From NCBI GenBank assembly GCA_022702545.1, contig JAHRBC010000002.1, forward strand, positions 8,742,001-8,806,000: DNA of 64,000 nucleotides, in the 5' to 3' direction. Below the pieces are notes generated by a model. It saw nothing but the letters and a program-made list of their open reading frames with translations. It had not been told where the DNA came from and did no database searches. This document shows positions 10,922 to 55,815 of this stretch, piece by piece. Every line of letters starts with the position of its first letter. Position 1 is the first letter of the stretch. Source of the DNA: Phycomyces nitens. Taxonomy: Eukaryota > Mucoromycota > Mucoromycetes > Mucorales > Phycomycetaceae. The position numbers were made by a program, and so were the translations under genes.

Positions 10922-11163
10922 CACTGGAAAAATGGGCTGGATTACTAGTGCACCAAGAGTACTTGAAGGTGTAGGAAATATAGGCCTTTTTTTCAACTCA
11001 GAAGATTTTTTTTATTCAAATAAAAAAAGACTTTTTAACAGATCCTATTGGTTTGGGCAAACAAGTAAAATACAATAGTTTTTTTTTGTCTATAAATTGA
11101 CAGCAAATAAAACATATGAAGCACTTGTTTCCTTTTTTATCTTACAATCGAATCACACAAAAT

Positions 11164-14100
11164 ATGTCTTCTGCTTCCCAAAACAACACTGCCTGTTACT
11201 GTAACAAATGCAATGGTAACCAAGAAGGGTTCTCTATGGTATCCAGACGCAATTATCAGCGTCATGCCAAAAGAGCAAGAATTGAAGAGGCTGGACGAAC
11301 TGAGAGTAGTATGTATTAATTTTATATTTACTGCGCAATAATAACCATTATTCTTTAATTGAACCTCAGGCACACAAAGTGTCATTATGGATGTTGATGT
11401 TGAGGGTAAAAAATATTTATTTGAAAACCAGTTTAAGGGCAATAAACTAATCTATTCCATATTTGTAGCAATCCCGATGTTTGAATCTGAATCCATGGAA
11501 ACAATGGGCGGTCAGGCCAACCTACCTTTTTTGGATTCCGTCCCGATGTCTGACGATGATTTGGTTGACAATGAGGTCAATTGCGATGACACCGAGATTG
11601 TCAATGACAGCAACAATGGCGACAATGTGGAGAGTGATGTCGAGGAGATTGATGTTGAGGAGTTCAACGGCGAAGGTCAGTATTGAATAACTATCATAAA
11701 GAAGCATGCCAAAATTGAGTGTTAATAATTTTCCTTTTTTAAAACAGAACCCTTTGGTGCTCCTGGTATGCCCGAAAATCCAGTGCACAGGGCCATTGCC
11801 ATTTTCGTTGTTCTTTTTGCATCCCGTTATGCAGTCAACAAGGGCGCCGTTGTATTGATCCAGTTTGTCAATGAGCTCTTGACAGTCTACGGACAAGACT
11901 TTCAGCTCCCAACAAGTCTTGCTGGTCTTCAGAAGATGACGGGTTTTAGTGATATCACCAAAGATATCAAACGATTCGTGTCATGTCCAGATTGTCATCA
12001 AATATACGAAGAATCTATTTCCGTTCCCCCTCTCTGCAGCTCTGTGAAAATAGGCGCAAATATAACTTGTAACTGTGAGCTGACAAAGAAGTCGACGTCT
12101 GGTGCCATGGTGCCAAAGAAAATCTTTGTGTATCAGTCCATCAAAGATGCACTCAAGGTTCTCTTTCTTCGTCCTGGTTTCGAGCAGAAGATCGGCGTCT
12201 GGAACGACGAGCTGAAGGTGACAGACACCATGTGCGACATTTACGATGGCAAGATGTGGAAGGAGTTGAAAGACAGTGATGGTCTTTCATTTGTTGCCCG
12301 CCCTCGTTCTCTTCTGTTGACTCTAAACATCGACTGGTTTCAGCCGTTCGATGGTGTAACACACTCCTCTGGTGCTATATATTTGGCAATCAACAACTTG
12401 CCCAGAGATGAAAGATTCAAACCAGAGAACGTCGTCTTGGTTGGGTTAATGCCTGGACCAAAGGAACCCAAATCTTATGAGATCAACAACTATCTCAAGC
12501 CGTTGGTGGATGACCTTGAGCAGTTGTACGTTGGAATGACGATTCCAACCTTTGAATGTGGATCTGGAACAACTGTCCGTGCTGCGCTCCTTATGGTGGC
12601 ATGTGATATTCCAGCAGCCAGAAAAACAAGCGGATTTACGTCCCACAATAGCACTAACGCCTGCTACAAATGCAGCCGTCAATTCAGTCGTCTTGCTGGG
12701 ACAAGCAGTGTGGATTTCCATGGTTTCGACTATTCGCAGTGGTCTATTCGTAATGGTGTGGAAAACAGGGTGTATGCTGAGGAGTGGAAGAGTGCAAGTA
12801 CGCCCTCAGAAAGGCATCAGCTGGAGGTCGAAAATGGTGTTCAATGGTCGCAGTTGCATCGCCTTGGATACTTTGATCTAGTACGTGGAACGATCATTGA
12901 TCCCATGCACAACTTATTCTTGGGTACGGCGAAGAGGATGGTGGACAAGTGGATCGCTGGTGGCGATATTAATAATGGACAACTTAATGACATGGAGCAA
13001 ATCGCCAAGACAATGATCCTGCCAGCTTCATACACTTCATTAACAGCGAAAATTGGAAAGGGATTTTCATTTATGAAAGCTGATGAATGGAAGTCCTGGG
13101 TGCTGGTGTACTCTCCCGTCTTGTTGAAAGATGTTCTCAATGATGACAAGTTCAGAAACTGGATGGACTTTGTCGATGCCTGCCGTCTCCTTGTAAAGTC
13201 ATCCCTATCATTTGAAGAACTTGACGATGCCCATGACTACCTTGAAAAATTCTGTCAAAAGTGCGAGCGTCTTTACCCTCCTAGTGTCCTCACCTGCAAT
13301 ATGCATCTGCACCTCCATCTTCGCGAGACCATTCGTGATTTTGGACCAGTGTATGGCTATTGGCTCTTTGGGTTCAAGCGATACAACGGTTTGCTAAAGA
13401 ACGTGAGCACTAACAGAAAGGATAGTTTTGAGGCAACTTACATGAGGAATTTCGTAGAAGAAGCATACAAGGCCAATTATGTGCAAGCAGTCCTTGGATA
13501 CTCCAGTAAGATCCCATTCTCTTCTGTCTTTGCCAAGCTCGTATCTACACCCACACTTCCAGCCACAACTTCGCCAATCAATCATCCTCAGTTCAACTTG
13601 CAAGATTTTGTAAATGCTTCTCTGACCACAATGGATTCTGCAAAGGGTAACGAGCCTCTTCCTCCTTCGGCTTTTCCTCTGCAAGTTGGAATGAAAACAT
13701 TAATTGGTGATATCGATTATCCACATTTGCTGGATTATTATAAGCATGCTTATGACCTTCCCAGTCTTACCAGCTATCAGCACGCCTTCTCCCCGTTTTC
13801 CTTTGTTGATAACGAGATCACAAAGTTGAAGTCCATCAACTTACTTGGCCAAGTATATCGCGGTTCAAACAGACAAGGAAATGGAGGGTCGTTTATACAA
13901 GCACTGTTTGTTGGCAGCAATGAGGACGTTGTAAATGCATATACAGGCCAGATTCAGTATCTCTTTACACACAAGTTCGTGCCACCACCAGTTGATGATC
14001 TCCACCCGACTCGCATGGTTCATGACAATCAACATGTTTTCGCATTTGTTAAATGGTTTGTCACAACCTGTGATAGAACACGAGAGAATGAAGGTGTTGA

Positions 14101-14251
14101 GGTGTATCTCCCAAGGCATTCTCCAGATGACTTGAACAGTATTCTTCCAGTGCATAGGATTTTGTTAGAAGTTGCCATTGGACAGCAAATCACTCGAACT
14201 AATAGGAAAACAATGCTCGTCATCCCTCTTCCCAAAAAAATCTGCGCCTAA
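11164..14251 (+). CDS. Transposase of E2 (Tnp2/Plavaka-like), four exons, about 963 aa, apparently intact
   Basis: Exons are 11164-11308, 11370-11405, 11469-11675 and 11748-14251; all junctions are GT-AG and keep frame. Exon 1 gives the C-x-C-x2-C cluster (CYCNKC) and the basic QRHAKRAR. Exon 3 is acidic. Exon 4 starts PFGAPGMPENPVHR and contains CPDCHQIY (possible second metal site), NIDWFQPFDG (about residue 320), NNLPRDERFKPEN, LMPGPKEPK, CDIPAARKTSGF (about 414), ACYKC and DPMHNLFLG (about 513). Late in the protein, FGPVYGYWLFGFKRYNG and a C-terminal HVFAFVKW ... ILPVHRILLEV domain follow. These are hallmarks of Tnp2/Plavaka transposases. Intron 2 (63 nt) has no stop, so retention would also stay open here, but the E1 copy cannot be read through it. 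The gene converges on the accessory gene, with 129 bp between stops. Confidence 0.88.
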
Positions 14252-14380
14252 TATAAAATAAAAAATATCTTCTTCTTTTAAAGATAACCAAAATTAAGGC
14301 ACCAAAAAATATACTTTATATATATTGACGGTATTACGTTCTTGGGGAAGTGGGTGAGAAAATATAAACAACAACTTTAT

Positions 14381-17300
14381 TTATACATCGTTTCTAAAAG
14401 CCCACTGTGGGAGGCGGGAAACCACGTCATTTGGGGCCGCTGAGTTTGACACACTCTTAAAAACCCGAGGCAAGAATTGATGGGAATGCAAACCCATTCC
14501 ATCAAGGACATGAGAGTCAACAATAGTGATGAGTCTATTAAACTGAAATACAAGTATTAATATTTTATATAACAATTCAGACACGTAACCCAGTTATTGC
14601 TGTTGTAAATGAGTATTGATCACTGCTGAATCTGAGAGTAAGACTGAAGGATAAAATAATATCCTCAGCTATTCCAGTCAAACGGATCTGGCTTTATGAG
14701 ATTATCCAATACACAGATCATCATACACATAATTGATTATTATTTATTATTATTATTGTTATCACCATAATATGGGATATACAGATATACACATATTTAT
14801 CTAATGGCATCATCATATTCCATCTACATATTTCGTTGATTATATGAATACTTGATTGAGAGACTACAACTACAATGAATTAATAATTCTAAAAACATTA
14901 CCCAAGTATCTGGGTCGGAATATTAAAATATTACCAATAGCATAAATGCTCTTCTTTACCAAAGCTCTCTGGCTGATCTGACTGGAGAAGTATCATATCA
15001 ATAGGTCTCTCTGGATCTTTCCAGAAAGACAATACTCCTGGAAGATGACTCATCGTGATAAATATTACCAAAGCATATACTGAATTATAAATCAGAAAAC
15101 ATATAAATATCAGTAGTTAGTTCTGTGTAGAAACATAACCTTTTTCTTTGGAATAAACACCCTACACAAGTTCTCACGAATTCTTTCGTATCTTTCCAAG
15201 TTTATTTCTACCCACAACATTTTTTTCGTGAACTACAATGAACTCTCCTGCTGACTTGTTCCCTGCTGGTTTGACCACTGTTCCTGAGGAGGCTACCTTG
15301 TCCCCCATGTCTGCGGATGAACTTTTCTCTGACTTGAGTGCACCTGTCCTGTGTCCGGATGCTGCCCCTGGTTTTGGTTCTGTTTCTGGTTCTGGTTTCC
15401 CTTCTGTTGGTAGAGAAGCAGCTACTGCTTCCTCCTGTGTGGCCGCTCTTAAGGCCGAATTGGGCAATCACATTGAGGCCTTCAGCGCTGCTCATGTAGC
15501 AAACAATGAGCAAGCAGCTGATGATGCACTCCGCAGGATCGAGCGCACAAGATTGGCTATTGCAAGCCTTGAAAAGTGCAGCGAGATGCTTGCCTCTCCT
15601 GGTGCGAACACAGAGAGAGCTGGCCGTGGAGGAGGGTTGACTCTCAACCGAAGAGATCTCCCCAAATTCCAATTGGCTGCTAGTATCATAAAGCCCTTCC
15701 CAAGTGAAGAGGTGTTTGAATCAGTTGGACATTTCCTACGTACCTTCGAGAATGTAATCGAGTCTTCATCCTTGGACATCGAAAAAGTTTGGATGAAATT
15801 CCTGCCGCTCTGCTTGCCTCATACAGATGATGGATGGGTAGAGACGGATCTCAAGAAGTGTAACAGTTGGAAATCGGCGAAATCGTGCTTCAACGAAAGA
15901 CATGGTTCCAGCCTGGTGTCTCGACGATTTACAGACCAGGTCTTTACAATGGTAATGAAGAACACTGAGTCAATCGGTGATTACTCCAAGAAGTTCCTCC
16001 GAGCGGTATACAATGCTGGTCTAAACAAAGACGATCCTCGTATCGCTGATCGCTTCCTTGCTTCGTTGGCCTTGTCAGTGCAAACGTTGATAAAAGTTAC
16101 CATGGCTCGCTCTCCCAATGGGGAAGCAAAGCGTGAGTGGACTGTGGAGCAGATCACGCAGATTGGCAGAGACATCCTTGGGGATGACAATAGGCTCTAT
16201 GCTGAGGCAACCCGTTTGATTCCTGGTGCCCATGGGCAACCTGAGAAGAAATATGAGGACCATCCCAGAAAGAAGCCACACCACCACACCAGCAAGATTA
16301 CAAAGCATGAGAAAACATTTTTCTGCTCGCACCATGGGAAGAATCCTACCCATGAGTCTAGTAAATGTTTTACCTTGATAAACCGCAAGAACAAAGCCAG
16401 TAGTCTCAACAGTCGCAATCCATGCAGACGTTGTGGGGAAAACTACCACCACGGTCATGTCTGCAAGAGCAAGAACAATGAGCCGATTCTAATGGTATCC
16501 CAGTCTCCCGCGAAGGATAAGTCTGAGCAGACGCTCAAGGCAATCCAGGACAGGATTGATGAAGACATGGAAGAGATATCGTTTGAATGTAAGTATCTAC
16601 TTGACAGAATTGAGAGAAGAATTAAAGCTAATGATGCATTTAATCTTACAACTCCAATCATTATAGAGAACCAGAAGCTCATTGGGATGATCGATACAGG
16701 CAGTTCCCGCACTTTTATAAATTTGAAATGTTTAAATAACAATTTACAAATAACAAAAATAAATGCTTCAATTGGTTCCTTTAACTTTCTGTCCAAGAAT
16801 AGTAGTACAAAGAGATTAGGAAAAACTGATCCTTTGAATTTTAAATATATAAATGGCATTACCTTTAAACATGCACCAGAGGTGTTAGAGTTTAATATGG
16901 GTTTCAATTTCGATATCCTCCTTGGAAGAGATATCTTGGCAAAAATGAATATTGGATTAATTAATGTTGCATATGATATCGAAGGCGAATATGTCCATTC
17001 AGATAATGCAAAAGACTATGCCGCCATTTATGAAAACCTGAATATCGATAAAGAGAAAAAGTTTGAACCTGATAATTCGCCGGCTGGCACAGCACAGCAA
17101 CGAGCAGAATTTATGAGCTCTATTAAAGAAGCCTTGGAGGAGAATAAGAATATCCCCGTTGAGTCATACTGTCCTTTATCAGAATCTATTATTCGTTTAC
17201 CCACTAAGGAAGGTGCTACGGCTTACAGACGGCAGTATCCCATACCGCACGCTCTAAGACCAACACTTGACAAGCAAGTAAAAGAATGGCTTGAGACAGG

Positions 17301-20300
17301 AACTATTGTAAAGTCCAAGACCAACACTTCCTTTAACAGTCCAATGTTGCTTGTTCCAAAGAGAAACAAAGCTGGTGAGATTGTTAGTCATAGAGTGTGT
17401 TTGGACGTAAGATTGTTGAATCAGATCCTACCTCCCACATTCAATTACCCAATTCCAAAAGTCCAAACAATATTCCAAAACTTGAGTGGAAAGAAATTCT
17501 TTACCACACTTGACTTATCCAATGCGTATCATCGTTTCAAAGTTGCACCCGAGGATGTACATAAATTGACATTTACTCATTTAGATGGGCAACAATATAG
17601 CTTTATTAAAGGCTGTTTTGGCTTAAAGATGCTTACTTCACAATTTCAACATGTCATGGCTACTTTATTTGATAAGATTGACTGTGTACAGAATTTTGTT
17701 GATGATTGTATCGTTGCCAGTGAAACATTTGAACAGCATGTCAAAGATGTCAAACTAGTTATTGAGAAATTGTCATCCGCGAAGTTGATCCTGAACTCAG
17801 AAAAATGTGTCTGGTTTCAACATTCAGTGAGATTGCTTGGTTTTGTCGTCAATGAGACAGGCACCAAGGTTGATAAGCGAAAGTTGACAAATGTTGACAA
17901 ATGGCCTATTCCTAGAACTGCGAAACAGATTCAGCAATTCATGGGTTTGATCAATTACTTTAGAGATTATATTCCTATGATTTCAAAGGTAGCTGAGCCT
18001 ATTTCACGGTTAAGTCATGCCAAGAATGTATCTGATCAATGGACAGATGAGCAGACACAAAGCTTTAAAGCTCTAAAAGACATATTGCACAAAGATTTGA
18101 TTCTTCATTACGCAGATATGTCACGTGAAATGTATGTGGCCACAGATGCATCCCTTTATGGAGCAGCCTGCTTATTGTTTCAGCGAGATGAACAAGGGCG
18201 CGATAAATATATCAGCTTTGTATCAACTTCATTGAGCCCATCGCAACGACGATGGAGCACAACTAAAAGAGAATTATATGCAGTCGTTTTGGCGCTTGAA
18301 AAATTCCGTCCATTTCTATGGGGCCGACAGTTCACTATTTTTACTGATCATCGAGCACTCATTTATCTCCATACTCAAAAAATAGCTAATCCAATGATGA
18401 TTGGCTGGATTGAGACACTCCTTGACTTTGATTTTAAGGTGGTCCATATTCCTGGCTTATTGAATAAGCTACCTGATTTATTAAGCCGCTTGTATCCTCC
18501 AGAGGATAGTGACAAGCTGGTGGAGGATGATGGATTGAGAAAAATCAGAACAGATAACCTACAACCCAAAAGTAGAGTTATTGTTCGAAAGAAAAAATAT
18601 AGTAAAGACAGAGTGCTAAATGTACTTGCAACGCAACTCGTCGAAAATGTATCAGAGACGTCTGACTATATGTCACCTCCTGAAGAAAAGCGTAATGGCT
18701 TATTAAAAGAAGCACATTCGTTTGGTCACTTTGGAAGTCAAGCTATAGTGAATGATCTTCATTCACAAGGCTTACACTGGACTAATATATATGAAGAGGC
18801 TAAAGAGATTATCCGTTCTTGCCCTGAATGTCAGAAGCACAATATTAGCAAGAGAGGCTATCACCCATTGACTAATGTTGTAGCATTCCAACCATTTGAT
18901 CATGTTGCAATTGATTTATGCGGTGAATTCCCTGTATCAGAGGATGGACACACGTACATGTTGGTTCTGGTTGATGTATGCTCCAAGTATGTGATCTTGA
19001 GACCACTGCCAAACAAGAACTCAACAACAATAGCTAAAGCATTGATAAAGATTTTTGGAGATTATGGTTTTCCCAAAGTAATGCAAAGTGACAATGGTCT
19101 GGAATTCAGAAACTCTTTGATGTCAAGCCTATCTAAAGAGCTTGGGATAGATAGGAGATATTCTACGGCATATCATCCACAAGGGAATGGTATTGCTGAA
19201 GCTAGTGTAAAGATTGCAGAGAATACTGTACGTAAAATGATGAGAGCGAACAGCAATGACTGGTGTCACTATCTGCCAATTGTTCAGCTATGCATCAATA
19301 GACATATTCCTCAAAAGACACTAAGCGCACCGTTTTCATTAATGTATGCTCGCAGAGTCAATGTACCTGATGAGTATAGTGACAAAGGAAAACACTCTCT
19401 TCCTAAAGCCACAATGACAATTGATGAGCTAGAGAAGCAGATTGATCATATGGAAAATATCATATTCCCTGCCATTAACGAACGTGTGTTAAGGATTAAT
19501 GAGGAATTGAAAAAGAAATATGATCATAAAAATATCCTAATCGACATCCCCAAAGGAACACACGTAATGGTCAGATTACCACATCGATCAAACAAATTGG
19601 CACCTATTTATGAAGGTCCATATACAGTGGTTCGAAAGAATAAAGGAGGATCGTACGAGCTAAAGGATGAGCAAGGTGAATTGTTACACCGAAATTATAC
19701 ACCCTCCGAACTCAAGATGGTCACCATTGATGAATCAACAATTGACAATGAGCTCTACGAAGTTGAAGACATTCGAGATCATCGTGGTACTGCTGGTCAA
19801 CGGGAATATTTGGTCAAATGGGCTGGTTATGGCGAACGTGCCAATACATGGCAAATGGCTGAAGACTTTACTGATTCCACAATCGTACAAAAGTACTGGA
19901 AGAAAGTTAGAGAGTTGGAACGTTTAGAGAATGAGAGAGCCGAAGACTTGATTAACAAGAGTGCATCCTCAAATAAGAAAACAGTTCACACCGCTAAACT
20001 AAATGGTAAAAGTAACAATAACGATGAGCACAAGAAAAGAACGCTTCCTACCACTTTGAGCAGAGAAGAAAGATTACACAAAAGAAGAGCAATCAAAAAT
20101 CAAAAATAATGAACACGTAATCCACGAAGCTGAGTTTACAGTGTAGATCTCCATAAAAAGTACAAAAAATTATGTGCATGATTGACTTGAATAAAACAAG
20201 CAATTGGCCAGATCATGAAATAGTAAATGAGATGTTTTATGCCGAATCAACAAAAGGTATTGTTGAATCTGGTGGAGGATAATGTTGTAAATGAGTATTG

Positions 20301-23300
20301 ATCACTGCTGAATCTGAGAGTAAGACTGAAGGATAAAATAATATCCTCAGCTATTCCAGTCAAACGGATCTGGCTTTATGAGATTATCCAATACACAGAT
20401 CATCATACACATAATTGATTATTATTTATTATTATTATTGTTATCACCATAATATGGGATATACAGATATACACATATTTATCTAATGGCATCATCATAT
20501 TCCATCTACATATTTCGTTGATTATATGAATACTTGATTGAGAGACTACAACTACAATGAATTAATAATTCTAAAAACATTACCCAAGTATCTGGGTCGG
20601 AATATTAAAATATTACCAATAGCATAAATGCTCTTCTTTACCAAAGCTCTCTGGCTGATCTGACTGGAGAAGTATCATATCAATAGGTCTCTCTGGATCT
20701 TTCCAGAAAGACAATACTCCTGGAAGATGACTCATCGTGATAAATATTACCAAAGCATATACTGAATTATAAATCAGAAAACATATAAATATCAGTAGTT
20801 AGTTCTGTGTAGAAACATAACCTTTTTCTTTGGAATAAACACCCTACACAAGTTCTCACGAATTCTTTCGTATCTTTCCAAGTTTATTTCTACCCACAAC
20901 ATTTTTTCGTGAACTACAATGAACTCTCCTGCTGACTTGTTCCCTGCTGGTTTGACCACTGTTCCTGAGGAGGCTACCTTGTCCCCCATGTCTGCGGATG
21001 AACTTTTCTCTGACTTGAGTGCACCTGTCCTGTGTCCGGATGCTGCCCCTGGTTTTGGTTCTGTTTCTGGTTCTGGTTTCCCTTCTGTTGGTAGAGAAGC
21101 AGCTACTGCTTCCTCCTGTGTGGCCGCTCTTAAGGCCGAATTGGGCAATCACATTGAGGCCTTCAGCGCTGCTCATGTAGCAAACAATGAGCAAGCAGCT
21201 GATGATGCACTCCGCAGGATCGAGCGCACAAGATTGGCTATTGCAAGCCTTGAAAAGTGCAGCGAGATGCTTGCCTCTCCTGGTGCGAACACAGAGAGAG
21301 CTGGCCGTGGAGGAGGGTTGACTCTCAACCGAAGAGATCTCCCCAAATTCCAATTGGCTGCTAGTATCATAAAGCCCTTCCCAAGTGAAGAGGTGTTTGA
21401 ATCAGTTGGACATTTCCTACGTACCTTCGAGAATGTAATCGAGTCTTCATCCTTGGACATCGAAAAAGTTTGGATGAAATTCCTGCCGCTCTGCTTGCCT
21501 CATACAGATGATGGATGGGTAGAGACGGATCTCAAGAAGTGTAACAGTTGGAAATCGGCGAAATCGTGCTTCAACGAAAGACATGGTTCCAGCCTGGTGT
21601 CTCGACGATTTACAGACCAGGTCTTTACAATGGTAATGAAGAACACTGAGTCAATCGGTGATTACTCCAAGAAGTTCCTCCGAGCGGTATACAATGCTGG
21701 TCTAAACAAAGACGATCCTCGTATCGCTGATCGCTTCCTTGCTTCGTTGGCCTTGTCAGTGCAAACGTTGATAAAAGTTACCATGGCTCGCTCTCCCAAT
21801 GGGGAAGCAAAGCGTGAGTGGACTGTGGAGCAGATCACGCAGATTGGCAGAGACATCCTTGGGGATGACAATAGGCTCTATGCTGAGGCAACCCGTTTGA
21901 TTCCTGGTGCCCATGGGCAACCTGAGAAGAAATATGAGGACCATCCCAGAAAGAAGCCACACCACCACACCAGCAAGATTACAAAGCATGAGAAAACATT
22001 TTTCTGCTCGCACCATGGGAAGAATCCTACCCATGAGTCTAGTAAATGTTTTACCTTGATAAACCGCAAGAACAAAGCCAGTAGTCTCAACAGTCGCAAT
22101 CCATGCAGACGTTGTGGGGAAAACTACCACCACGGTCATGTCTGCAAGAGCAAGAACAATGAGCCGATTCTAATGGTATCCCAGTCTCCCGCGAAGGATA
22201 AGTCTGAGCAGACGCTCAAGGCAATCCAGGACAGGATTGATGAAGACATGGAAGAGATATCGTTTGAATGTAAGTATCTACTTGACAGAATTGAGAGAAG
22301 AATTAAAGCTAATGATGCATTTAATCTTACAACTCCAATCATTATAGAGAACCAGAAGCTCATTGGGATGATCGATACAGGCAGTTCCCGCACTTTTATA
22401 AATTTGAAATGTTTAAATAACAATTTACAAATAACAAAAATAAATGCTTCAATTGGTTCCTTTAACTTTCTGTCCAAGAATAGTAGTACAAAGAGATTAG
22501 GAAAAACTGATCCTTTGAATTTTAAATATATAAATGGCATTACCTTTAAACATGCACCAGAGGTGTTAGAGTTTAATATGGGTTTCAATTTCGATATCCT
22601 CCTTGGAAGAGATATCTTGGCAAAAATGAATATTGGATTAATTAATGTTGCATATGATATCGAAGGCGAATATGTCCATTCAGATAATGCAAAAGACTAT
22701 GCCGCCATTTATGAAAACCTGAATATCGATAAAGAGAAAAAGTTTGAACCTGATAATTCGCCGGCTGGCACAGCACAGCAACGAGCAGAATTTATGAGCT
22801 CTATTAAAGAAGCCTTGGAGGAGAATAAGAATATCCCCGTTGAGTCATACTGTCCTTTATCAGAATCTATTATTCGTTTACCCACTAAGGAAGGTGCTAC
22901 GGCTTACAGACGGCAGTATCCCATACCGCACGCTCTAAGACCAACACTTGACAAGCAAGTAAAAGAATGGCTTGAGACAGGAACTATTGTAAAGTCCAAG
23001 ACCAACACTTCCTTTAACAGTCCAATGTTGCTTGTTCCAAAGAGAAACAAAGCTGGTGAGATTGTTAGTCATAGAGTGTGTTTGGACGTAAGATTGTTGA
23101 ATCAGATCCTACCTCCCACATTCAATTACCCAATTCCAAAAGTCCAAACAATATTCCAAAACTTGAGTGGAAAGAAATTCTTTACCACACTTGACTTATC
23201 CAATGCGTATCATCGTTTCAAAGTTGCACCCGAGGATGTACATAAATTGACATTTACTCATTTAGATGGGCAACAATATAGCTTTATTAAAGGCTGTTTT

Positions 23301-26300
23301 GGCTTAAAGATGCTTACTTCACAATTTCAACATGTCATGGCTACTTTATTTGATAAGATTGACTGTGTACAGAATTTTGTTGATGATTGTATCGTTGCCA
23401 GTGAAACATTTGAACAGCATGTCAAAGATGTCAAACTAGTTATTGAGAAATTGTCATCCGCGAAGTTGATCCTGAACTCAGAAAAATGTGTCTGGTTTCA
23501 ACATTCAGTGAGATTGCTTGGTTTTGTCGTCAATGAGACAGGCACCAAGGTTGATAAGCGAAAGTTGACAAATGTTGACAAATGGCCTATTCCTAGAACT
23601 GCGAAACAGATTCAGCAATTCATGGGTTTGATCAATTACTTTAGAGATTATATTCCTATGATTTCAAAGGTAGCTGAGCCTATTTCACGGTTAAGTCATG
23701 CCAAGAATGTATCTGATCAATGGACAGATGAGCAGACACAAAGCTTTAAAGCTCTAAAAGACATATTGCACAAAGATTTGATTCTTCATTACGCAGATAT
23801 GTCACGTGAAATGTATGTGGCCACAGATGCATCCCTTTATGGAGCAGCCTGCTTATTGTTTCAGCGAGATGAACAAGGGCGCGATAAATATATCAGCTTT
23901 GTATCAACTTCATTGAGCCCATCGCAACGACGATGGAGCACAACTAAAAGAGAATTATATGCAGTCGTTTTGGCGCTTGAAAAATTCCGTCCATTTCTAT
24001 GGGGCCGACAGTTCACTATTTTTACTGATCATCGAGCACTCATTTATCTCCATACTCAAAAAATAGCTAATCCAATGATGATTGGCTGGATTGAGACACT
24101 CCTTGACTTTGATTTTAAGGTGGTCCATATTCCTGGCTTATTGAATAAGCTACCTGATTTATTAAGCCGCTTGTATCCTCCAGAGGATAGTGACAAGCTG
24201 GTGGAGGATGATGGATTGAGAAAAATCAGAACAGATAACCTACAACCCAAAAGTAGAGTTATTGTTCGAAAGAAAAAATATAGTAAAGACAGAGTGCTAA
24301 ATGTACTTGCAACGCAACTCGTCGAAAATGTATCAGAGACGTCTGACTATATGTCACCTCCTGAAGAAAAGCGTAATGGCTTATTAAAAGAAGCACATTC
24401 GTTTGGTCACTTTGGAAGTCAAGCTATAGTGAATGATCTTCATTCACAAGGCTTACACTGGACTAATATATATGAAGAGGCTAAAGAGATTATCCGTTCT
24501 TGCCCTGAATGTCAGAAGCACAATATTAGCAAGAGAGGCTATCACCCATTGACTAATGTTGTAGCATTCCAACCATTTGATCATGTTGCAATTGATTTAT
24601 GCGGTGAATTCCCTGTATCAGAGGATGGACACACGTACATGTTGGTTCTGGTTGATGTATGCTCCAAGTATGTGATCTTGAGACCACTGCCAAACAAGAA
24701 CTCAACAACAATAGCTAAAGCATTGATAAAGATTTTTGGAGATTATGGTTTTCCCAAAGTAATGCAAAGTGACAATGGTCTGGAATTCAGAAACTCTTTG
24801 ATGTCAAGCCTATCTAAAGAGCTTGGGATAGATAGGAGATATTCTACGGCATATCATCCACAAGGGAATGGTATTGCTGAAGCTAGTGTAAAGATTGCAG
24901 AGAATACTGTACGTAAAATGATGAGAGCGAACAGCAATGACTGGTGTCACTATCTGCCAATTGTTCAGCTATGCATCAATAGACATATTCCTCAAAAGAC
25001 ACTAAGCGCACCGTTTTCATTAATGTATGCTCGCAGAGTCAATGTACCTGATGAGTATAGTGACAAAGGAAAACACTCTCTTCCTAAAGCCACAATGACA
25101 ATTGATGAGCTAGAGAAGCAGATTGATCATATGGAAAATATCATATTCCCTGCCATTAACGAACGTGTGTTAAGGATTAATGAGGAATTGAAAAAGAAAT
25201 ATGATCATAAAAATATCCTAATCGACATCCCCAAAGGAACACACGTAATGGTCAGATTACCACATCGATCAAACAAATTGGCACCTATTTATGAAGGTCC
25301 ATATACAGTGGTTCGAAAGAATAAAGGAGGATCGTACGAGCTAAAGGATGAGCAAGGTGAATTGTTACACCGAAATTATACACCCTCCGAACTCAAGATG
25401 GTCACCATTGATGAATCAACAATTGACAATGAGCTCTACGAAGTTGAAGACATTCGAGATCATCGTGGTACTGCTGGTCAACGGGAATATTTGGTCAAAT
25501 GGGCTGGTTATGGCGAACGTGCCAATACATGGCAAATGGCTGAAGACTTTACTGATTCCACAATCGTACAAAAGTACTGGAAGAAAGTTAGAGAGTTGGA
25601 ACGTTTAGAGAATGAGAGAGCCGAAGACTTGATTAACAAGAGTGCATCCTCAAATAAGAAAACAGTTCACACCGCTAAACTAAATGGTAAAAGTAACAAT
25701 AACGATGAGCACAAGAAAAGAACGCTTCCTACCACTTTGAGCAGAGAAGAAAGATTACACAAAAGAAGAGCAATCAAAAATCAAAAATAATGAACACGTA
25801 ATCCACGAAGCTGAGTTTACAGTGTAGATCTCCATAAAAAGTACAAAAATTATGTGCATGATTGACTTGAATAAAACAAGCAATTGGCCAGATCATGAAA
25901 TAGTAAATGAGATGTTTTATGCCGAATCAACAAAAGGTATTGTTGAATCTGGTGGAGGATAATGTTGTAAATGAGTATTGATCACTGCTGAATCTGAGAG
26001 TAAGACTGAAGGATAAAATAATATCCTCAGCTATTCCAGTCAAACGGATCTGGCTTTATGAGATTATCCAATACACAGATCATCATACACATAATTGATT
26101 ATTATTTATTATTATTATTGTTATCACCATAATATGGGATATACAGATATACACATATTTATCTAATGGCATCATCATATTCCATCTACATATTTCGTTG
26201 ATTATATGAATACTTGATTGAGAGACTACAACTACAATGAATTAATAATTCTAAAAACATTACCCAAGTATCTGGGTCGGAATATTAAAATATTACCAAT

Positions 26301-27538
26301 AGCATAAATGGTCTTCTTTACCAAAGCTCTCTGGCTGATCTGACTGGAGAAGTATCATATCAATAGGTCTCTCTGGATCTTTCCAGAAAGACAATACTCC
26401 TGGAAGATGACTCATCGTGATAAATATTACCAAAGCATATACTGAATTATAAATCAGAAAACATATAAATATCAGTAGTTAGTTCTGTGTAGAAACATAA
26501 CCTTTTTCTTTGGAATAAACACCCTACACAAGTTCTCACGAATTCTTTCGTATCTTTCCAAGTTTATTTCTACCCACAACAATTGCCTTATTATTATTTA
26601 CCTCATCACTTCTCCATCCTGGGCGAACAGTACGGATGACACGTTTGGTACCACTTTCAGATGTCTCTATGTCAGATTCACCCTCGGACATTGCCTCCTT
26701 TATTATCATGTTGGCACAATCTTTGCCCATCATCTCATTGATTGTGTCCTCATTGTCAAGGTAAGCATTCAAGCGCCGAGAAAGGCTCTAAAATTCTCAG
26801 TTAATACTGCTTCTTTGATATTAAATATTTATTAGTTATTTAAAGTATATCTTACCTCGCCTGCACGGTTTGCCCTTCTTGAACGAGTGTTCACGGCAGC
26901 TTTCTCCGAAGAAGACTTCTTGTCTCTGGAACTTTGGCTCCTGAAGTTGGTGTGAAGATTCTTGTACAGATCGCTTCTCCTCATTCCCTTGCTCTCAAAC
27001 TTGGGCTCCAAGTAGTTGAGGATCCTAACAACTAACTCCTTGTTTGGACTTTGGTTGAAAGGAACGTTTGTATTCCACTTTGGCTTATTATTGTTTGCCA
27101 ACATCTCTGCAGCTATTCTCAACGAAAACTTTGGCTTCCACATAAATTTGCGAATTGCCGTCTGACACAGTATATGAGATAATGAATTGATAACATACTA
27201 TATAATTTGCTACTTACATAGACATCGTTGTTTGTCTGCTTGGTTGGCACAACTGGTAGAAGAGCAACAGGTGCAACAGGAATGGCAGGAGAGTTGACAA
27301 GAGCAGTGTTATGGGCACTACCCAATGCACCGATTGCTCTAATGGCTGAAGCATTACCAGCCACAACAACGTTGAGTTGAGCCTTTACAGACCCCACTTG
27401 CACTTCGACGTTTGTCATTTTGCCTTCCATCTCGGAAAGCTTTGCCATAATCTGTTCCATGTCAGGAGCAGGAGCAGGAGCAGGAGCAGGACCAGCAGGA
27501 GTGGGACGAGGAGCAATTGTTCTTCTTTGGTTAACCAT
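14381..27538 (-). CDS. E2 accessory protein, four exons, 324 aa, third intron filled by a 12-kb retrotransposon
   Basis: Exons on the minus strand: 27218-27538 (321 nt), 26856-27161 (306), 26602-26787 (186) and 14381-14542 (162, with TAA). The last three lengths are identical in E3 and E4. Exon 1 encodes a Pro/Ala-rich start and a predicted coiled coil (MEQIMAKLSEMEGKM). Exon 2 has NKPKWNTNVPFNQSPNKELV and a basic RSRRANRAGE. Exon 3 has GKDCAN, an acidic EGESDIETSES and RVIRTVRPGWRSDE. Exon 4 ends LPQWAFRNDV. No known domain recognised. Position, convergent with the transposase, suggests a DNA-binding or regulatory partner like the second protein of plant CACTA elements, but that is inference. 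Intron 3 would be 73 bp without the chromovirus; whether the enlarged intron is spliced is unknown. Confidence 0.75.
14601..15219 (+). repeat. Chromovirus LTR1
   Basis: It is 619 bp with TGTTG ... CAACA ends, a TATAAATA promoter motif at about 15102 and AATAAA at about 15142. Copies are at 20283-20901 and 25963-26581. Confidence 0.93.
15238..20109 (+). CDS. Chromovirus Gag-Pol polyprotein, copy 1, 1623 aa, intact
   Basis: This single ORF contains the whole life-cycle machinery. The Gag region (residues 1-about 395) ends in a zinc knuckle CRRCGENYHHGHVC. Protease has MIDTGSSRTFIN (about 485) and ILLGRDIL. In the reverse transcriptase, LDLSNAYHRFKV is followed by an active site FVDD (about 820) in place of the usual YxDD. 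RNase H has ATDASLYGA and TKRELYAVV. Integrase has the H-H-C-C zinc site (HSFGHFG ... CPEC, about 1160-1200) and catalytic D, D, E in AIDLCGEF (1224), QSDNGLEF (1282) and NGIAEASVK (1318). The C-terminal chromodomain (about 1504-1556, YEVEDI ... YLVKWAGY ... NTWQMAEDF) would direct integration to modified chromatin. Gag and Pol are fused without frameshift. The ATG lies only 18 nt after the LTR. Confidence 0.95.
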   Translation: MNSPADLFPAGLTTVPEEATLSPMSADELFSDLSAPVLCPDAAPGFGSVSGSGFPSVGREAATASSCVAALKAELGNHIEAFSAAHVANNEQAADDALRRIERTRLAIASLEKCSEMLASPGANTERAGRGGGLTLNRRDLPKFQLAASIIKPFPSEEVFESVGHFLRTFENVIESSSLDIEKVWMKFLPLCLPHTDDGWVETDLKKCNSWKSAKSCFNERHGSSLVSRRFTDQVFTMVMKNTESIGDYSKKFLRAVYNAGLNKDDPRIADRFLASLALSVQTLIKVTMARSPNGEAKREWTVEQITQIGRDILGDDNRLYAEATRLIPGAHGQPEKKYEDHPRKKPHHHTSKITKHEKTFFCSHHGKNPTHESSKCFTLINRKNKASSLNSRNPCRRCGENYHHGHVCKSKNNEPILMVSQSPAKDKSEQTLKAIQDRIDEDMEEISFECKYLLDRIERRIKANDAFNLTTPIIIENQKLIGMIDTGSSRTFINLKCLNNNLQITKINASIGSFNFLSKNSSTKRLGKTDPLNFKYINGITFKHAPEVLEFNMGFNFDILLGRDILAKMNIGLINVAYDIEGEYVHSDNAKDYAAIYENLNIDKEKKFEPDNSPAGTAQQRAEFMSSIKEALEENKNIPVESYCPLSESIIRLPTKEGATAYRRQYPIPHALRPTLDKQVKEWLETGTIVKSKTNTSFNSPMLLVPKRNKAGEIVSHRVCLDVRLLNQILPPTFNYPIPKVQTIFQNLSGKKFFTTLDLSNAYHRFKVAPEDVHKLTFTHLDGQQYSFIKGCFGLKMLTSQFQHVMATLFDKIDCVQNFVDDCIVASETFEQHVKDVKLVIEKLSSAKLILNSEKCVWFQHSVRLLGFVVNETGTKVDKRKLTNVDKWPIPRTAKQIQQFMGLINYFRDYIPMISKVAEPISRLSHAKNVSDQWTDEQTQSFKALKDILHKDLILHYADMSREMYVATDASLYGAACLLFQRDEQGRDKYISFVSTSLSPSQRRWSTTKRELYAVVLALEKFRPFLWGRQFTIFTDHRALIYLHTQKIANPMMIGWIETLLDFDFKVVHIPGLLNKLPDLLSRLYPPEDSDKLVEDDGLRKIRTDNLQPKSRVIVRKKKYSKDRVLNVLATQLVENVSETSDYMSPPEEKRNGLLKEAHSFGHFGSQAIVNDLHSQGLHWTNIYEEAKEIIRSCPECQKHNISKRGYHPLTNVVAFQPFDHVAIDLCGEFPVSEDGHTYMLVLVDVCSKYVILRPLPNKNSTTIAKALIKIFGDYGFPKVMQSDNGLEFRNSLMSSLSKELGIDRRYSTAYHPQGNGIAEASVKIAENTVRKMMRANSNDWCHYLPIVQLCINRHIPQKTLSAPFSLMYARRVNVPDEYSDKGKHSLPKATMTIDELEKQIDHMENIIFPAINERVLRINEELKKKYDHKNILIDIPKGTHVMVRLPHRSNKLAPIYEGPYTVVRKNKGGSYELKDEQGELLHRNYTPSELKMVTIDESTIDNELYEVEDIRDHRGTAGQREYLVKWAGYGERANTWQMAEDFTDSTIVQKYWKKVRELERLENERAEDLINKSASSNKKTVHTAKLNGKSNNNDEHKKRTLPTTLSREERLHKRRAIKNQK
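20283..20901 (+). repeat. Chromovirus LTR2, shared by both bodies
   Basis: It is 619 bp and acts as 3' LTR of body 1 and 5' LTR of body 2. No target duplication lies beside it, as expected if the array arose by recombination rather than by two insertions. Confidence 0.92.
20919..25790 (+). CDS. Chromovirus Gag-Pol polyprotein, copy 2, 1623 aa, intact
   Basis: The protein is identical in length and, as far as I can compare, in sequence to copy 1, with the same FVDD active site, integrase triad and chromodomain. The leader is one T shorter (17 nt from LTR2 to ATG). The absence of coding differences indicates a very recent doubling or ongoing gene conversion. Confidence 0.95.
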   Translation: MNSPADLFPAGLTTVPEEATLSPMSADELFSDLSAPVLCPDAAPGFGSVSGSGFPSVGREAATASSCVAALKAELGNHIEAFSAAHVANNEQAADDALRRIERTRLAIASLEKCSEMLASPGANTERAGRGGGLTLNRRDLPKFQLAASIIKPFPSEEVFESVGHFLRTFENVIESSSLDIEKVWMKFLPLCLPHTDDGWVETDLKKCNSWKSAKSCFNERHGSSLVSRRFTDQVFTMVMKNTESIGDYSKKFLRAVYNAGLNKDDPRIADRFLASLALSVQTLIKVTMARSPNGEAKREWTVEQITQIGRDILGDDNRLYAEATRLIPGAHGQPEKKYEDHPRKKPHHHTSKITKHEKTFFCSHHGKNPTHESSKCFTLINRKNKASSLNSRNPCRRCGENYHHGHVCKSKNNEPILMVSQSPAKDKSEQTLKAIQDRIDEDMEEISFECKYLLDRIERRIKANDAFNLTTPIIIENQKLIGMIDTGSSRTFINLKCLNNNLQITKINASIGSFNFLSKNSSTKRLGKTDPLNFKYINGITFKHAPEVLEFNMGFNFDILLGRDILAKMNIGLINVAYDIEGEYVHSDNAKDYAAIYENLNIDKEKKFEPDNSPAGTAQQRAEFMSSIKEALEENKNIPVESYCPLSESIIRLPTKEGATAYRRQYPIPHALRPTLDKQVKEWLETGTIVKSKTNTSFNSPMLLVPKRNKAGEIVSHRVCLDVRLLNQILPPTFNYPIPKVQTIFQNLSGKKFFTTLDLSNAYHRFKVAPEDVHKLTFTHLDGQQYSFIKGCFGLKMLTSQFQHVMATLFDKIDCVQNFVDDCIVASETFEQHVKDVKLVIEKLSSAKLILNSEKCVWFQHSVRLLGFVVNETGTKVDKRKLTNVDKWPIPRTAKQIQQFMGLINYFRDYIPMISKVAEPISRLSHAKNVSDQWTDEQTQSFKALKDILHKDLILHYADMSREMYVATDASLYGAACLLFQRDEQGRDKYISFVSTSLSPSQRRWSTTKRELYAVVLALEKFRPFLWGRQFTIFTDHRALIYLHTQKIANPMMIGWIETLLDFDFKVVHIPGLLNKLPDLLSRLYPPEDSDKLVEDDGLRKIRTDNLQPKSRVIVRKKKYSKDRVLNVLATQLVENVSETSDYMSPPEEKRNGLLKEAHSFGHFGSQAIVNDLHSQGLHWTNIYEEAKEIIRSCPECQKHNISKRGYHPLTNVVAFQPFDHVAIDLCGEFPVSEDGHTYMLVLVDVCSKYVILRPLPNKNSTTIAKALIKIFGDYGFPKVMQSDNGLEFRNSLMSSLSKELGIDRRYSTAYHPQGNGIAEASVKIAENTVRKMMRANSNDWCHYLPIVQLCINRHIPQKTLSAPFSLMYARRVNVPDEYSDKGKHSLPKATMTIDELEKQIDHMENIIFPAINERVLRINEELKKKYDHKNILIDIPKGTHVMVRLPHRSNKLAPIYEGPYTVVRKNKGGSYELKDEQGELLHRNYTPSELKMVTIDESTIDNELYEVEDIRDHRGTAGQREYLVKWAGYGERANTWQMAEDFTDSTIVQKYWKKVRELERLENERAEDLINKSASSNKKTVHTAKLNGKSNNNDEHKKRTLPTTLSREERLHKRRAIKNQK
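25963..26581 (+). repeat. Chromovirus LTR3
   Basis: It is 619 bp, ending CAACA directly before the duplicated target ATTGC, beyond which the accessory-gene intron of E2 resumes (exon 3 ends at 26602). Confidence 0.93.
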
Positions 27539-27763
27539 TTTCTAGAATATGGTAAAGTATATTTCGATTATAATTATTAGTTTTTGTTCAATTGAAATAA
27601 AAATAAATACCATATACATACAAAAACTGTTTGGGTGAGTGAGTGAGTAAGTGTGTGTGTGTGTGTGTGTAAAGGTAAGAGAGGTTGAATATCAAAAAGG
27701 TCATTATATATAGGCATTTTGAATGACTATAAAGATGTTCCTCTATTGTCTTGAAGCACTGAG
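27539..27763. promoter_or_regulatory. E2 bidirectional promoter between accessory gene and micro-exon gene
   Basis: A minus-strand TATA-like motif (complement of 27704-27712, CTATATATA) faces the accessory gene. A plus-strand TATAAAG at 27728-27734 faces the micro-exon gene. A GT dinucleotide run (about 27653-27670) lies in the accessory leader. The same arrangement, with the CA/GT run, is conserved around E4 (44085-44120 joined to 50938-51145). Start sites are inferred. Confidence 0.6.
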
Positions 27764-27971
27764 ATGCAAATCGGCCTTGATATTGTTTTTGGGCTCAATC
27801 CATCATGCTTTCCGCAGCATGCTTCAAAGGTGAAAATTTTTTCAGACTCTCTCCTTTTTTTTTTGGTTCCCTTTATTTTTCCTTTTCCTTGCTTTTTTGA
27901 TATTGGCGCCTTTCTCTGGTAAGACATTTTTTATACCTCTTTATACACACAAATTAATCTCTTTTTCATAG

Positions 27972-28642
27972 ATGTGCGCTCCCATTGCAACTCATCCTTT
28001 CCACAATGGCCATCTAGACAAATACTCACTGGCCGCATTCACTGGTATCATCATCTTGATAAAAATTATTTTCACTTTCTCTCTTAGATTGGCCAAACAA
28101 CTTATGTAAGGATGTCATCGGCACCAGGTAAAAAATTTTCTTTCAATCATACTTGTTCCCTCTCTGACTCTATTCCATTGTAGACTGCCCTTTCTATTCA
28201 TGCCATCGGCCTCCTCCATCATTCGTGATTGTAATCATAAAGGTAATATTCTTTATAAATCTCTTTTGCTTATCCAAAATATTATTCAGACTATTTATTA
28301 ATAATTATTATTATGTGCTTTATAGACTCACTTGGTCTTCCTTTGCACACCATACCCCCTACTTTGATAACCCATTCGGCTCCTGGTATGTAAATTAAAT
28401 ATATCATCACTCTGTTCACCTATATTAATTTTTATTCCCTTTTTTATAGTAAAACCCGCCACACAGCCCATCCAGCCTTAAAATTCAAGTCCCCTTTGCG
28501 CACTCTTGCCCATCTCTTGCAATGTAAGTATCTTTTGACACACAAAAATTTTCTCTTTGTACCCCATATCAATAACACTTCTTTATCTTTTACAGAACAC
28601 TCCCGCAGCCCAAAAAATCACTGGATATTCATATTTTTGCAG
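27972..28642 (+). CDS. E2 micro-exon gene, small Pro/Ser-rich protein of unknown function
   Basis: Exons: 27972-28044 (73 nt, starts ATG), 28088-28127 (40), 28184-28242 (59), 28326-28385 (60), 28450-28523 (74) and 28596-28642 (47), with introns of 43-83 nt that all begin GT and end AG. The spliced frame is open across four introns and ends at a TAA (28479-28481) in the fifth exon, giving about 87 aa. Motifs: CAPIATHPFHNGH, MPSASSII, KPATQPIQP. In E4 the same frame continues because the TAA is TAC there. A longer 5' exon (27764-27918) probably precedes it, but its ATG frame ends at the splice. No family recognised. The gene is divergent from the accessory gene and ends about 550 bp before the element terminus. 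Confidence 0.65.
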
Positions 28643-29189
28643 GTATTTTTTATGTAGAAAAATATTCCATCCAAATAGCAGCAGGCAACCGGGTAGAAAC
28701 GGCTAGGCCATAGGAATAGGCGTAATAGTAGACCCTAAACCTAGAAACATTCTATTCTTTCTAATAAAAATAAAAACGTAAAACATTACCAATCAATTAT
28801 AAACGGGAAATCAAATAATGGGTGATATATTATTGGTCAAGAAGAATAAAGAAGATTAAATACTACACTATGAGGATGAAAAAAGTGTAGTAAAGATGTA
28901 AAATACTACAGTGTTATTCTCTCAAAATAGATTCTTTCAAAACGGAACCGCACATTTAAATGCTTAATCCCCCCATAACCTAATTAGATATACCCGCCGA
29001 AAGTGCTACTGGACCTCAGCTGCAGCACCTCTTTCAATAATTATGCTAGCAATTATCACGACATACTGCTAGCAGCTAAGACCAGGTTGTTCTCAAGCGG
29101 AATTATATGTAGAGTCTATCATAATTCAGGTAATTACACTATTGTTTACTTATCTTTCCACACTGGTAATCAAGCCCGTTTTTCCAGTG
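28643..29189. other. E2 right subterminal region
   Basis: It is AT-rich with no gene seen. It contains motif copies of ACACTGG/CCAGT near the end and a block (CCGAAAGTGCTA ... ACCTCAGCTGCAGCAC) also recognisable, more diverged, at the matching end of E4 (about 42790-42830). This is likely the transposase-binding subterminal region. Confidence 0.5.
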
Positions 29190-42620: not shown

Positions 42621-43141
42621 CACTGCAAAAGAGGGGCTGTTTGTAGTACCAGAAATCCGGCATTATGGTACTGAAAAGGGGTGGGTTTCGCCAAGTTTAA
42701 ATATTTTTTCAACTAGGAGGCATGCTAGCTTCACAGGTACCTCGGTGTCGTGGTTTACAGTAGTAGAAACATGTAAAAATGTGCCGCAGGTGAGGTCTGT
42801 TAGCACTTTCGGTATATGGATCTGATTTGGAACGATGAAAAAAAGTATTTAAAAGAACGGTTCTATTTTGGTCTTCTCAACGTGGTCGTTGAAATGTTCA
42901 GATACGTCATATATTTTTATGTTGCGAGTAGTAGAAACTCGATGTATCTACTAGTAGTTACTACCCAAGACCAATCAAATCAAATACTTGAAAGCCTCTT
43001 TATTCTTCTTCACCAGTAATATATCACCCATTATTTGATTTCCCGTTTATATTGGATTGGTAATGGTTTACGCTTTTATTTTTATTGGAAAGAATAGAAT
43101 GTTTCTAGGTTTAGGGTCTATTATTACGCCTATTCCTATGC

Positions 43142-43877
43142 CTAGCCGTTTCTACCTGGTTGCTTGCTGCTATTTGGATGGAATATTTTTCTACATAAAA
43201 AATACCTGCAAAAATATGAATATCCAGCGATTTTTTGGGCTGCGGGAGTGTTCTGTAAAAGATAAAGAAGTGTTAATGATATGGGGTACAAAGAGAAAAT
43301 TTTTGTGTGTCAAAAGATACTTACATTGCAAGAGATGGGCAAGAGTGGGCAAAGGGGACTTGAATTGTAAGGCTGGATGGGCTGTGTGGCGGGTTTAACT
43401 ATAAAAAAGAGAGTAAAAATTAATATGGGTGAACAGAGTGATAATATATTTAATTTACATACCAGGAGCCAAATTGGTTATCAAAGTAGGGGGCATGGTG
43501 TGCAAAGGAAGCCCAAGTGAGTCTATAAAACACATAATAATAATTATTAATAAATAGTCTGAATAATATTTTAGATAAGCAAAAAGAGATTTATAAAGAA
43601 TATTACCTTTATGATTACAATTGCGAATAATGGAGGAGGCCAATGGCGTGAATAGAAAGGGCAGTCTACAATGGAATAGAGTCAGAGAGGGAACAAGTAT
43701 GATTGAAAGAAAAAAAATTACCTGGTGCCAATGGCATCCCTATATAAGTTGTTTGGCCAATCTAAAAGAGAAAGTGAAAATAATTTTTATCAAGATGATG
43801 GTACCAGTGAATGCGGCCAGTGAGTATTTGTCTGGATGGCCATTGTGGAAAGGATGAGTTGCAATGGGAGCGCACAT
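43142..43877 (-). CDS. E4 micro-exon gene, about 138 aa predicted
   Basis: Exons on the minus strand: 43805-43877 (73 nt, ATG at its first base), 43722-43761 (40), 43607-43665 (59), 43463-43522 (60), 43325-43398 (74) and a last exon from 43252. Lengths of the first five equal those of E2 and all introns are GT-AG. The frame is open throughout. If the last exon is terminal, it reads to TAG at 43142-43144; E2 has a possible splice donor after 47 nt, at the position matching 43206. Differences from E2 are mostly conservative or silent, which supports a real protein. It is rich in Pro, Ser, Thr and Cys, with no recognised domain or membrane segment. Its promoter was split from the accessory gene by E3. 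Confidence 0.65.
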
Positions 43878-44084
43878 CTATGAAAAAGAGGTTAATTTGT
43901 GTATATAAAGAGGTATAAAAAATGTCTTACCAGAGAAAGGCGCCAATATCAAAAAAGCAAGCAAAAGGAAAAATAAAGGGAACCAAAAAAAAAGAAGAGA
44001 GTCTGAAAAATTTTTCACCTTTGAAGCATGCTGCGGAAAGCATGATGGATTGAGCCCAAAAACAATATCAAGGCCGATTTGCAT

Positions 44085-44120
44085 CTCAGTGCTTCAAGAC
44101 AATAGAGGAACATCTTTATA
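44085..44120 (-). promoter_or_regulatory. E4 micro-exon gene TATA box, cut off by E3
   Basis: CTTTATA at 44114-44120 (TATAAAG on the minus strand) matches the TATAAAG at 27728 in E2. The E3 target duplication ATA is the last three bases, so the box is preserved but everything upstream now belongs to E3. Confidence 0.55.
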
Positions 44121-44364
44121 CACTGGAAAAATGGCCCTGAATACACTGGTGGTATAGTAGCCCTGAACTGGTGTGAAAGCTAGTCTATTTTTCAACTCCA
44201 CAGTTTTCCTTTTTTTTTATTTCGAAAATATAATTTTACTACATCCTATTGGTTCGGATACAATGAGCATTAGAATATTACTTTTTATTATTATAAAAGT
44301 ATAGCAAATAAAATACATGTAACACTTGTTTCCTTTTAATAATAATATTACAAACACAAACATC

Positions 44365-47300: not shown

Positions 47301-47449
47301 ACATTTGCCTGCCTGAATTTTCAGATGATGACTATCAGTGCATCCTGCCTGTTCATCGCATCTTGCTTGAGGTGGCCACTGCCAAATATATAAAGAACAA
47401 TGAGACGACAACACTAGTCATTCCTCTGCCAAAAAAGCAATATGCTTAA
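44365..47449 (+). pseudogene. Transposase of E3: catalytic exon intact, nonsense codon in exon 1
   Basis: Exons 44365-44512, 44571-44606, 44671-44871 and 44949-47449 match E2 in borders and phase. The eighth codon of exon 1 is TAA (44386-44388), ahead of the zinc cluster (CYCTVC). The normal product would therefore end after seven residues. Exon 4 alone is an 826-aa open frame from MPENPVHK, with NIDWFQPFDG, CDIPAARK, DPMHNLFLG and FGPVYGYWLFGFERFNG. Initiation at that ATG could still give a protein lacking the zinc and acidic regions. So this is either an N-terminally disabled copy or a copy using an internal start. Confidence 0.7.
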
Positions 47450-47574
47450 ATAAATAAATAAAAACATCTTTCCTCCAAGGCAAACAATTTTACCTTCTAA
47501 GTATGTTATTAAGACAAACTGTAACAATCAGCTTAAGAAGAGATTTTTTTTTAATTTTTTAATTGTTTAATTTT

Positions 47575-50937: not shown

Positions 50938-51145
50938 ATAGTCATTCAAAATGCCTATATATAACGGCCTTTTTGATATTCAACCTCTCTTACCTTTACA
51001 CCAACCCACACACACACACACACACACACACACTTACTCACCCACCCAACAAAACAGTTTTTGTATATATATTATATTTATTTTTATTTCAATTGAACAA
51101 AAACTAATAATTATAATCAAAATATACTTTACCATATTCTAGAAA

Positions 51146-52333: not shown

Positions 52334-52458
52334 TAAAATAATTTTTTTATCTCTCCATCTATTTTTTTTGACACGCGTTACGTTTTGATGACATTTATAA
52401 AGGCAATGCTATTTCTGTTCGGTTTTTTATGAAAGAGAAAAGATATTTATTTATTTTA

Positions 52459-55573: not shown

Positions 55574-55815
55574 AGTTTATATTATTTGATTGTGAGATAA
55601 AAAAGGAAACAAGTGCTACATATTTTTATTTGCTGTCATTTTATAGACAAGAAAAAGGCTATTGTTCTTTGATCCTTTGCCCAAACCAATAGGATGCATC
55701 AAAATTATACTTTTTATTTTTAAAAAAAATAATGTCTGAGATGAAAAAAAGCTCTATGTTTCTAGTACCCATCTGCACCATTTATACTAGGTGAAATCGA
55801 GGGGTTTTTCCAGTG

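Follow-up and report, generated by a model that had tools for sequence, protein, structure and literature searches.

Here we describe a unit of short, GT-AG bounded exon-like segments that CACTA/EnSpm elements of Phycomyces nitens carry in their right arm. At about even confidence, we read it as a spliced noncoding transcription unit which the elements would carry as a swappable cassette. All coordinates refer to the window, the whole 64,000-nucleotide stretch of contig JAHRBC010000002.1 that was analysed (Table 1). From sequence features we infer that the unit is transcribed, spliced and polyadenylated.

In the element E2 the unit occupies 27,972-28,642 on the + strand and comprises six GT-AG bounded segments of 73, 40, 59, 60, 74 and 47 nt. 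An ATG frame is open for 87 codons, and as sequence this pattern, from which the sequence-only reading had proposed a micro-exon gene, is real. The proposed divergent arrangement also holds, the unit lying head to head with an accessory gene on the - strand (start near 27,538), with TATA-like motifs on both strands of the promoter region between them. The poly(A) region that ends the unit lies about 340 bp before the right terminus of the element. A second copy on the other strand, likewise claimed earlier, is 95.6% identical and has the same exon lengths, as expected from 96% overall identity. It had been assigned to E4, but it actually forms the right end of E3, into which E4 inserted; E4 has a unit of its own.

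Table 1 Positions of the elements, their genes and the micro-exon units in the window.
Feature	Position	Strand	Remarks
E1 transposase	28..2394	-	E1 straddles the left window edge; target duplication AGA
E1 micro-exon unit	in L041, about 1474-2843		95-96% identical to the E2 unit
E2, CACTA/EnSpm type	10922..29189	+	ends CACTGG...CCAGTG, target duplication TAT, from ends and flanks
E2 transposase ORF, 827 aa	11768..14251	+	PF02992, E 6e-18
E2 accessory gene	26593..27538	-	tblastn matches of accessory proteins
E2 cassette	27476..28851	+	accessory-gene first codons, common promoter region, micro-exon unit and poly(A) region
Exon-like segment e1, 73 nt	27972..28044	+
Exon-like segment A, 40 nt	28088..28127	+
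Exon-like segment B, 59 nt	28184..28242	+
Exon-like segment C, 60 nt	28326..28385	+
Exon-like segment D, 74 nt	28450..28523	+	frame ends here in the E2 window copy
Exon-like segment F, 47 nt	28596..28642	+
Conserved 3' tail	28643..28860	+	AATAAA at 28,763, 28,769 and 28,845
E3, CACTG-ended, interrupted by E4	42621..55815	-	accessory gene and transposase (52,462-54,963) beyond E4
E3 micro-exon unit	43206..43877	-	exon lengths as in E2; right end of E3
E4, nested in E3	44121..50937	+	target duplication ATA, transposase 44,969-47,449, accessory gene on - strand
E4 diverged unit, two A-B exon pairs	49538..50353	+	50, 59, 50, 63, 58, 74, 45 nt
Array-type unit, four A-B exon pairs	62780..64000	+	extends past the window edge (L029)

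The carriers of the unit are ordinary CACTA/EnSpm elements, in agreement with the CACTA-like nature ascribed to E2 earlier. All four elements (E1, E2, E3 and E4) have CACTG...CAGTG termini, and 3-bp target duplications flank E2 (TAT), E4 (ATA) and E1 (AGA); no matching duplication was found in the E3 flanks, TCC and GGG. Transposase_21/tnp2 (PF02992) scored above cut-off in E2, E3 and E4, and no Pfam family did so in the E2 accessory gene. In all four, the unit is located inward of the right terminus, with the accessory gene on its other side, and reads outward. E4 is inserted at 44,121 next to CTTTATA of E3, equivalent to the TATA-like motif (27,728) ahead of the E2 unit, so that the E3 unit is cut off from its upstream region.

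The closest named relatives of the E2 transposase come from Mucor saturninus and Phycomyces. An LTR-retrotransposon array occupies 14,601-26,581 within E2; the E2 blocks to its left and right both recur at 99% identity in the same copies. The right end of E2 is reached, with differing flanks, by 13 of the 14 fetched E2-type copies and by L023; L014 stops short, and in L020 a single base of the terminal motif is altered. In the interrupting array, which looks like tandem copies with a common LTR, there are two polyprotein ORFs of 1,623 aa (the first with reverse transcriptase, RNase H, integrase and chromodomain) and three LTR copies that are nearly identical. E2 itself reads as inserted in another retrotransposon (ORFs 8,390-10,323 and 29,221-31,439); a related, uninterrupted stretch of this retrotransposon-like sequence is found in L009, and a tRNA-Val (anticodon aac) lies near its end at 31,645-31,720 on the - strand. 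Elsewhere in the window, about 10 kb (32,000-42,000) shows strongly negative GC and AT skew, the + strand being C- and T-rich; a LINE-like reverse transcriptase ORF at 37,538-40,831 has repeats about 1 kb long around it.

We examined whether the unit encodes a protein, as the sequence-only reading had proposed. A fast-evolving gene for 87-117 aa would account for the frame being open through six exons in E3 and, in the E1/E2/E3 group, to codon 87 in 23 of 25 copies (one of them partial and open to its end). It would likewise explain that E4 and E6 can be read without a stop from the last A exon to the end of D. Yet openness of this kind is expected by chance. In exon-wise dinucleotide shuffles of E2, 87 or more codons without a stop occurred in some frame in 2,121 of 5,000 trials and in frame 0 in 521 of 5,000; for the 117 codons of E3, the same shuffles gave 298 of 5,000 in frame 0 and 661 of 5,000 in some frame. 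The other two of the 25 copies are broken before codon 88.

The substitution pattern argues further against a protein. Differences between copies had been described as mostly silent or conservative, but an E2-type copy (L012) compared with E3 shows 5 synonymous and 12 nonsynonymous changes, and E2 and E3 differ by 5.1% in exons versus 4.1% in introns. The corresponding exon and intron differences are 0.045 and 0.028 for E1-E2 and 0.045 and 0.051 for E1-E3. Exon versus intron identity is 0.84 versus 0.875 (E4-E6) and 0.751 versus 0.752 (E2-E4) in distant pairs, and 0.966 versus 0.951 (E2-L34) and 0.949 versus 0.955 (E3-L34) in close ones. Exon changes common to at least two of the 25 copies are nonsynonymous in 17 of 26 cases (17:9), a fraction of 0.654 against a neutral expectation of 0.684. 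Pooled over 36 pairs, pN/pS is 0.77 in the presumed frame, versus 0.94 and 0.68 in the other two. As a control, the four transposases gave dN of 0.18-0.27 at dS of 1.0-2.5.

Where exons are repeated, the frame is not kept either. An A-B pair of 50 and 59 nt adds 109 nt, so the reading frame rotates, and stops occur in all three frames in all eight parsed sequences (E4, two of E6, L037, L038, L042, L043 and L044); E6 has no start codon at the aligned position. A homologue search of 5.8 billion proteins at E up to 1 returned one match only, a predicted 102-aa Mucor saturninus protein (P0001) that uses the same exons and is 94% identical. This match favours a gene; the Mucor saturninus annotation was made via MAKER with AUGUSTUS and GeneMark, and the term RNA-seq is absent from the main text of its paper (PMC7928374). 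The unit is without coding constraint, and the N:S ratio, exon and intron rates, frame rotation and chance openness rule out a protein gene as the main reading; we consider it very unlikely. The outcome that the sequence-only reading named beforehand as refuting it, a dN/dS near 1 with phase-breaking indels in further copies, is largely what we observe. A 52-codon upstream ORF (27,764-27,922) was set aside, as an internal T-run differs in length between copies: among the 24 others it falls short of the E2 window copy by 1 nt in 9, by 2 nt in 8 and by 3 nt in 7.

What does appear to be conserved, across subfamilies and not among close copies, are the predicted splice sites. In an alignment of nine subfamily sequences, invariant columns make up 29 of 39 at splice sites and 110 of 180 in the 3' tail, versus 119 of 273 in exons and 114 of 229 in introns. 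Against exon and intron columns together (233 of 502 invariant), this yields p values of 0.0008 for splice sites and 0.0009 for the tail, with 0.18 for exons versus introns; these values are optimistic, as four of the nine sequences are near-identical and columns are not independent. Splice dinucleotides are invariant in 7 of 10 cases versus 217 of 736 dinucleotides overall; by eye, GT or AG is displaced by one base in the alignment at the A donor and C acceptor, and the A acceptor is unaligned. Distant pairs agree: splice-site identity is 34/38 for E2-E4 (exons 193/257, introns 164/218) and 55/59 for E4-E6 (exons 330/393, introns 307/351). Close pairs show no such excess (46/49 in both E2-L34 and E3-L34). 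In the set of 25 close copies, 8 of 50 splice-site positions vary, proportionally no fewer than in exons (50/353) and introns (27/268), while variants shared between copies fall on 1 of 50 splice-site, 26 of 353 exon and 12 of 268 intron positions.

Additionally, base composition follows the predicted borders: in E2, E3, E4 and E6, exons have a GC of 0.45-0.48 and introns one of 0.24-0.27. Intron lengths in E2 and E4 (43-83 nt) are similar to those of 11 coding-gene introns (48-77 nt), and the splice sites of the unit outscore other GT/AG (p 0.0008-0.03, in a partly circular test). Against splicing, CTRAY branch points were found in only 1 of 5 E2 introns, compared with 4 of 6 E4 introns and 6 of 11 coding controls, and some array copies (L035, L036 and L040) have lost B donors. 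Two further candidates were considered. For intronic snoRNAs or another known RNA, Rfam gave no match at gathering score in the window and one sub-threshold match, in the accessory gene. For a conserved structure of the 3' tail, the consensus fold is weak (-3.46 kcal/mol), and two-sided changes mostly separate two groups.

Two alternatives to a transcription unit have to be weighed against this pattern. In the first, which we regard as unlikely though well worth weighing, the unit would be the relic of an old gene (an accessory gene since lost, or a fragment taken from the host), a neutral passenger in successful elements homogenised by gene conversion. Neutral exon evolution, the frame kept open in most E1/E2/E3 copies and an exon GC similar to that of transposase coding sequence (0.448 and 0.473) fit this idea, and the soybean CACTA element Tgm-Express1 is reported to carry spliced host gene fragments (PMC1947982). 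A passenger, however, would have no need of splice signals and a 3' tail that, across subfamilies, change less than exons and introns do, nor of the splice signals that tandem units of arrays mostly retain. In the second, a DNA-level module, the unit would be a bidirectional promoter with a subterminal repeat array binding the transposase or accessory protein, the splice-like motifs being the binding pattern. In line with this, the array families contain tandem units of roughly 234 bp, exons and introns are equally conserved, and both strands bear TATA-like motifs. We nevertheless think it quite improbable, as conservation is concentrated on the GT/AG borders, GC alternates in step with them, the AATAAA-bearing tail is conserved, and the unit stops well short of the terminus.

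Comparison of the elements indicates that the unit has been exchanged between element lineages as part of a larger cassette, which also takes in the promoter region that the unit shares with the accessory gene, together with the latter's first codons. This cassette of about 1.4 kb is 95-96% identical in E1, E2 and E3. In their alignment it stands out as an island (27,476-28,851) with 90-99% identity per 100 columns and sharp borders. Identity drops to 64-67% in the adjoining block to its left and to 48-52% in that to its right; at greater distance it is 41-71% for E1-E2 and E2-E3, and 53% to 89% for E1-E3. Distances within the island are 0.041-0.050 versus transposase dS of 1.0-2.1 for the same pairs. 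Selection alone does not account for the 96% island, since transposase dS is alike for E2-E3 (2.09) and E2-E4 (2.18), and yet the unit is 95.6% identical in the former pair and about 65-75% in the latter. With constraint insufficient to maintain such a block, the high identity is best read as exchange between lineages. Mucor saturninus probably has the same layout, with the unit again less diverged than the transposase: its transposase INT47_005589 and the E2 transposase share 87% identity, the predicted product INT47_005590 reaches 94%, and the two loci have neighbouring numbers, each listed on a 5,281-bp contig.

In other families, A-B exon pairs are repeated in tandem: two in E4 and E6, four in L037, L038 and L042, five in L044 and six in L043, as counted from A acceptors; the frame parser missed some exons. 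Typical arrays alternate A exons of 49-51 nt, introns of 54-60 nt, B exons of 58-63 nt and introns of 67 nt. We searched the genome (49 Mb, 11 contigs) with three queries. With the E2 query, all 40 scored candidates, the best of 393 at first look, match over the full length at 95-100%. The E4 unit gave at least 41 rows, 35 at 98-100% (some partial), five at 83-84% and one at 65%. The array unit gave at least 58 rows, 13 at 69-76% and 45 at 88% or more, the latter representing at least 40 places, as arrays are split into several rows. Together, the three queries place the micro-exon unit at a minimum of 120 genomic positions. That the array at 63 kb is a single decayed copy is ruled out by about 40 places among 40 scored candidates. 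Beside two arrays we observed further elements. In L038 (809-1129) the array-type element seems to end at or near the start of an E4-like transposase (92.5% identical, 107 aa), which suggests a nested insertion. Another element lineage is suggested in L029 (5190-9881), where an accessory gene and a transposase of lower similarity (about 51-54% identity) follow downstream of the array unit.

As far as our searches show, the unit is undescribed, consistent with the earlier remark that it was not known from described elements: no description was found in the titles and abstract starts of the largely non-subscription literature searched. The elements share CAC...GTG termini, 3-bp target duplications and Transposase_21 with CACTA/EnSpm (CMC/CMCT clade), and add a micro-exon unit that is noncoding by the present tests and appears to be exchanged between lineages. 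Plavaka elements of fungi are fungal relatives of EnSpm transposases, but are reported to end in TGT..ACA or CATCA..TGATG, whereas the elements here end in CACTG..CAGTG (PMC12730594). Spliced gene fragments in a CACTA element and gene transfer between fungal transposon lineages are each known separately. In Tgm-Express1, internal fragments are spliced as exons and introns, as would be the case here, but there they are unrelated host fragments in one insertion, in contrast to one unit in many lineages (PMC1947982); no host gene was identified as the source of the unit. TET/JBP dioxygenase genes in fungal DNA transposons likewise form a module that moves between lineages, but that module is an enzyme gene, whereas the present one is without coding constraint and seems to be exchanged with its promoter (PMC12730594).

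Schistosome micro-exon genes also have many short exons, which are largely frame-preserving and encode secreted proteins. In contrast, the exon lengths here keep no frame.

In the spliced noncoding unit that we favour, transcription would proceed outward in the right arm, from the promoter region common to the head-to-head accessory gene. The predicted transcript would be cut by five or more short introns and end in the poly(A) region. Retained are the splicing layout, the composition contrast between exons and introns and the 3' end, and not exon sequence or reading frame. The block of about 1.4 kb would have been replaced between lineages, whether by recombination, by gene conversion or by gap repair. 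Other lineages have the A-B exon pair amplified to 2-6 tandem copies. In the weakest step, which we propose only tentatively, transcription and splicing of this intron-dense RNA would act in cis, so that the shared promoter stays open and the element is protected against RNA silencing. In C. elegans, intronic sequences are reported to form a barrier against nuclear RNAi (PMC5554785).

Taken as a whole, it is possible, though we hold this view with some doubt, that a transposon superfamily has its own spliced noncoding RNA, selected for splicing and not for exon sequence and passed on as a cassette with the accessory promoter, in which tandem exon-intron pairs change the intron number, perhaps against RNA silencing. 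If transcribed and spliced, the unit would be a noncoding RNA of a cut-and-paste transposon, kept for its introns, in fungi with RNA interference, and it raises the testable question of whether introns as such protect a mobile element. It also carries a warning, as gene predictors call such units proteins, and one such call already stands in the public annotation of Mucor saturninus. The sharp exchange of a block between elements whose transposases are near-saturated in synonymous divergence provides a clean example of modular evolution within DNA transposons.
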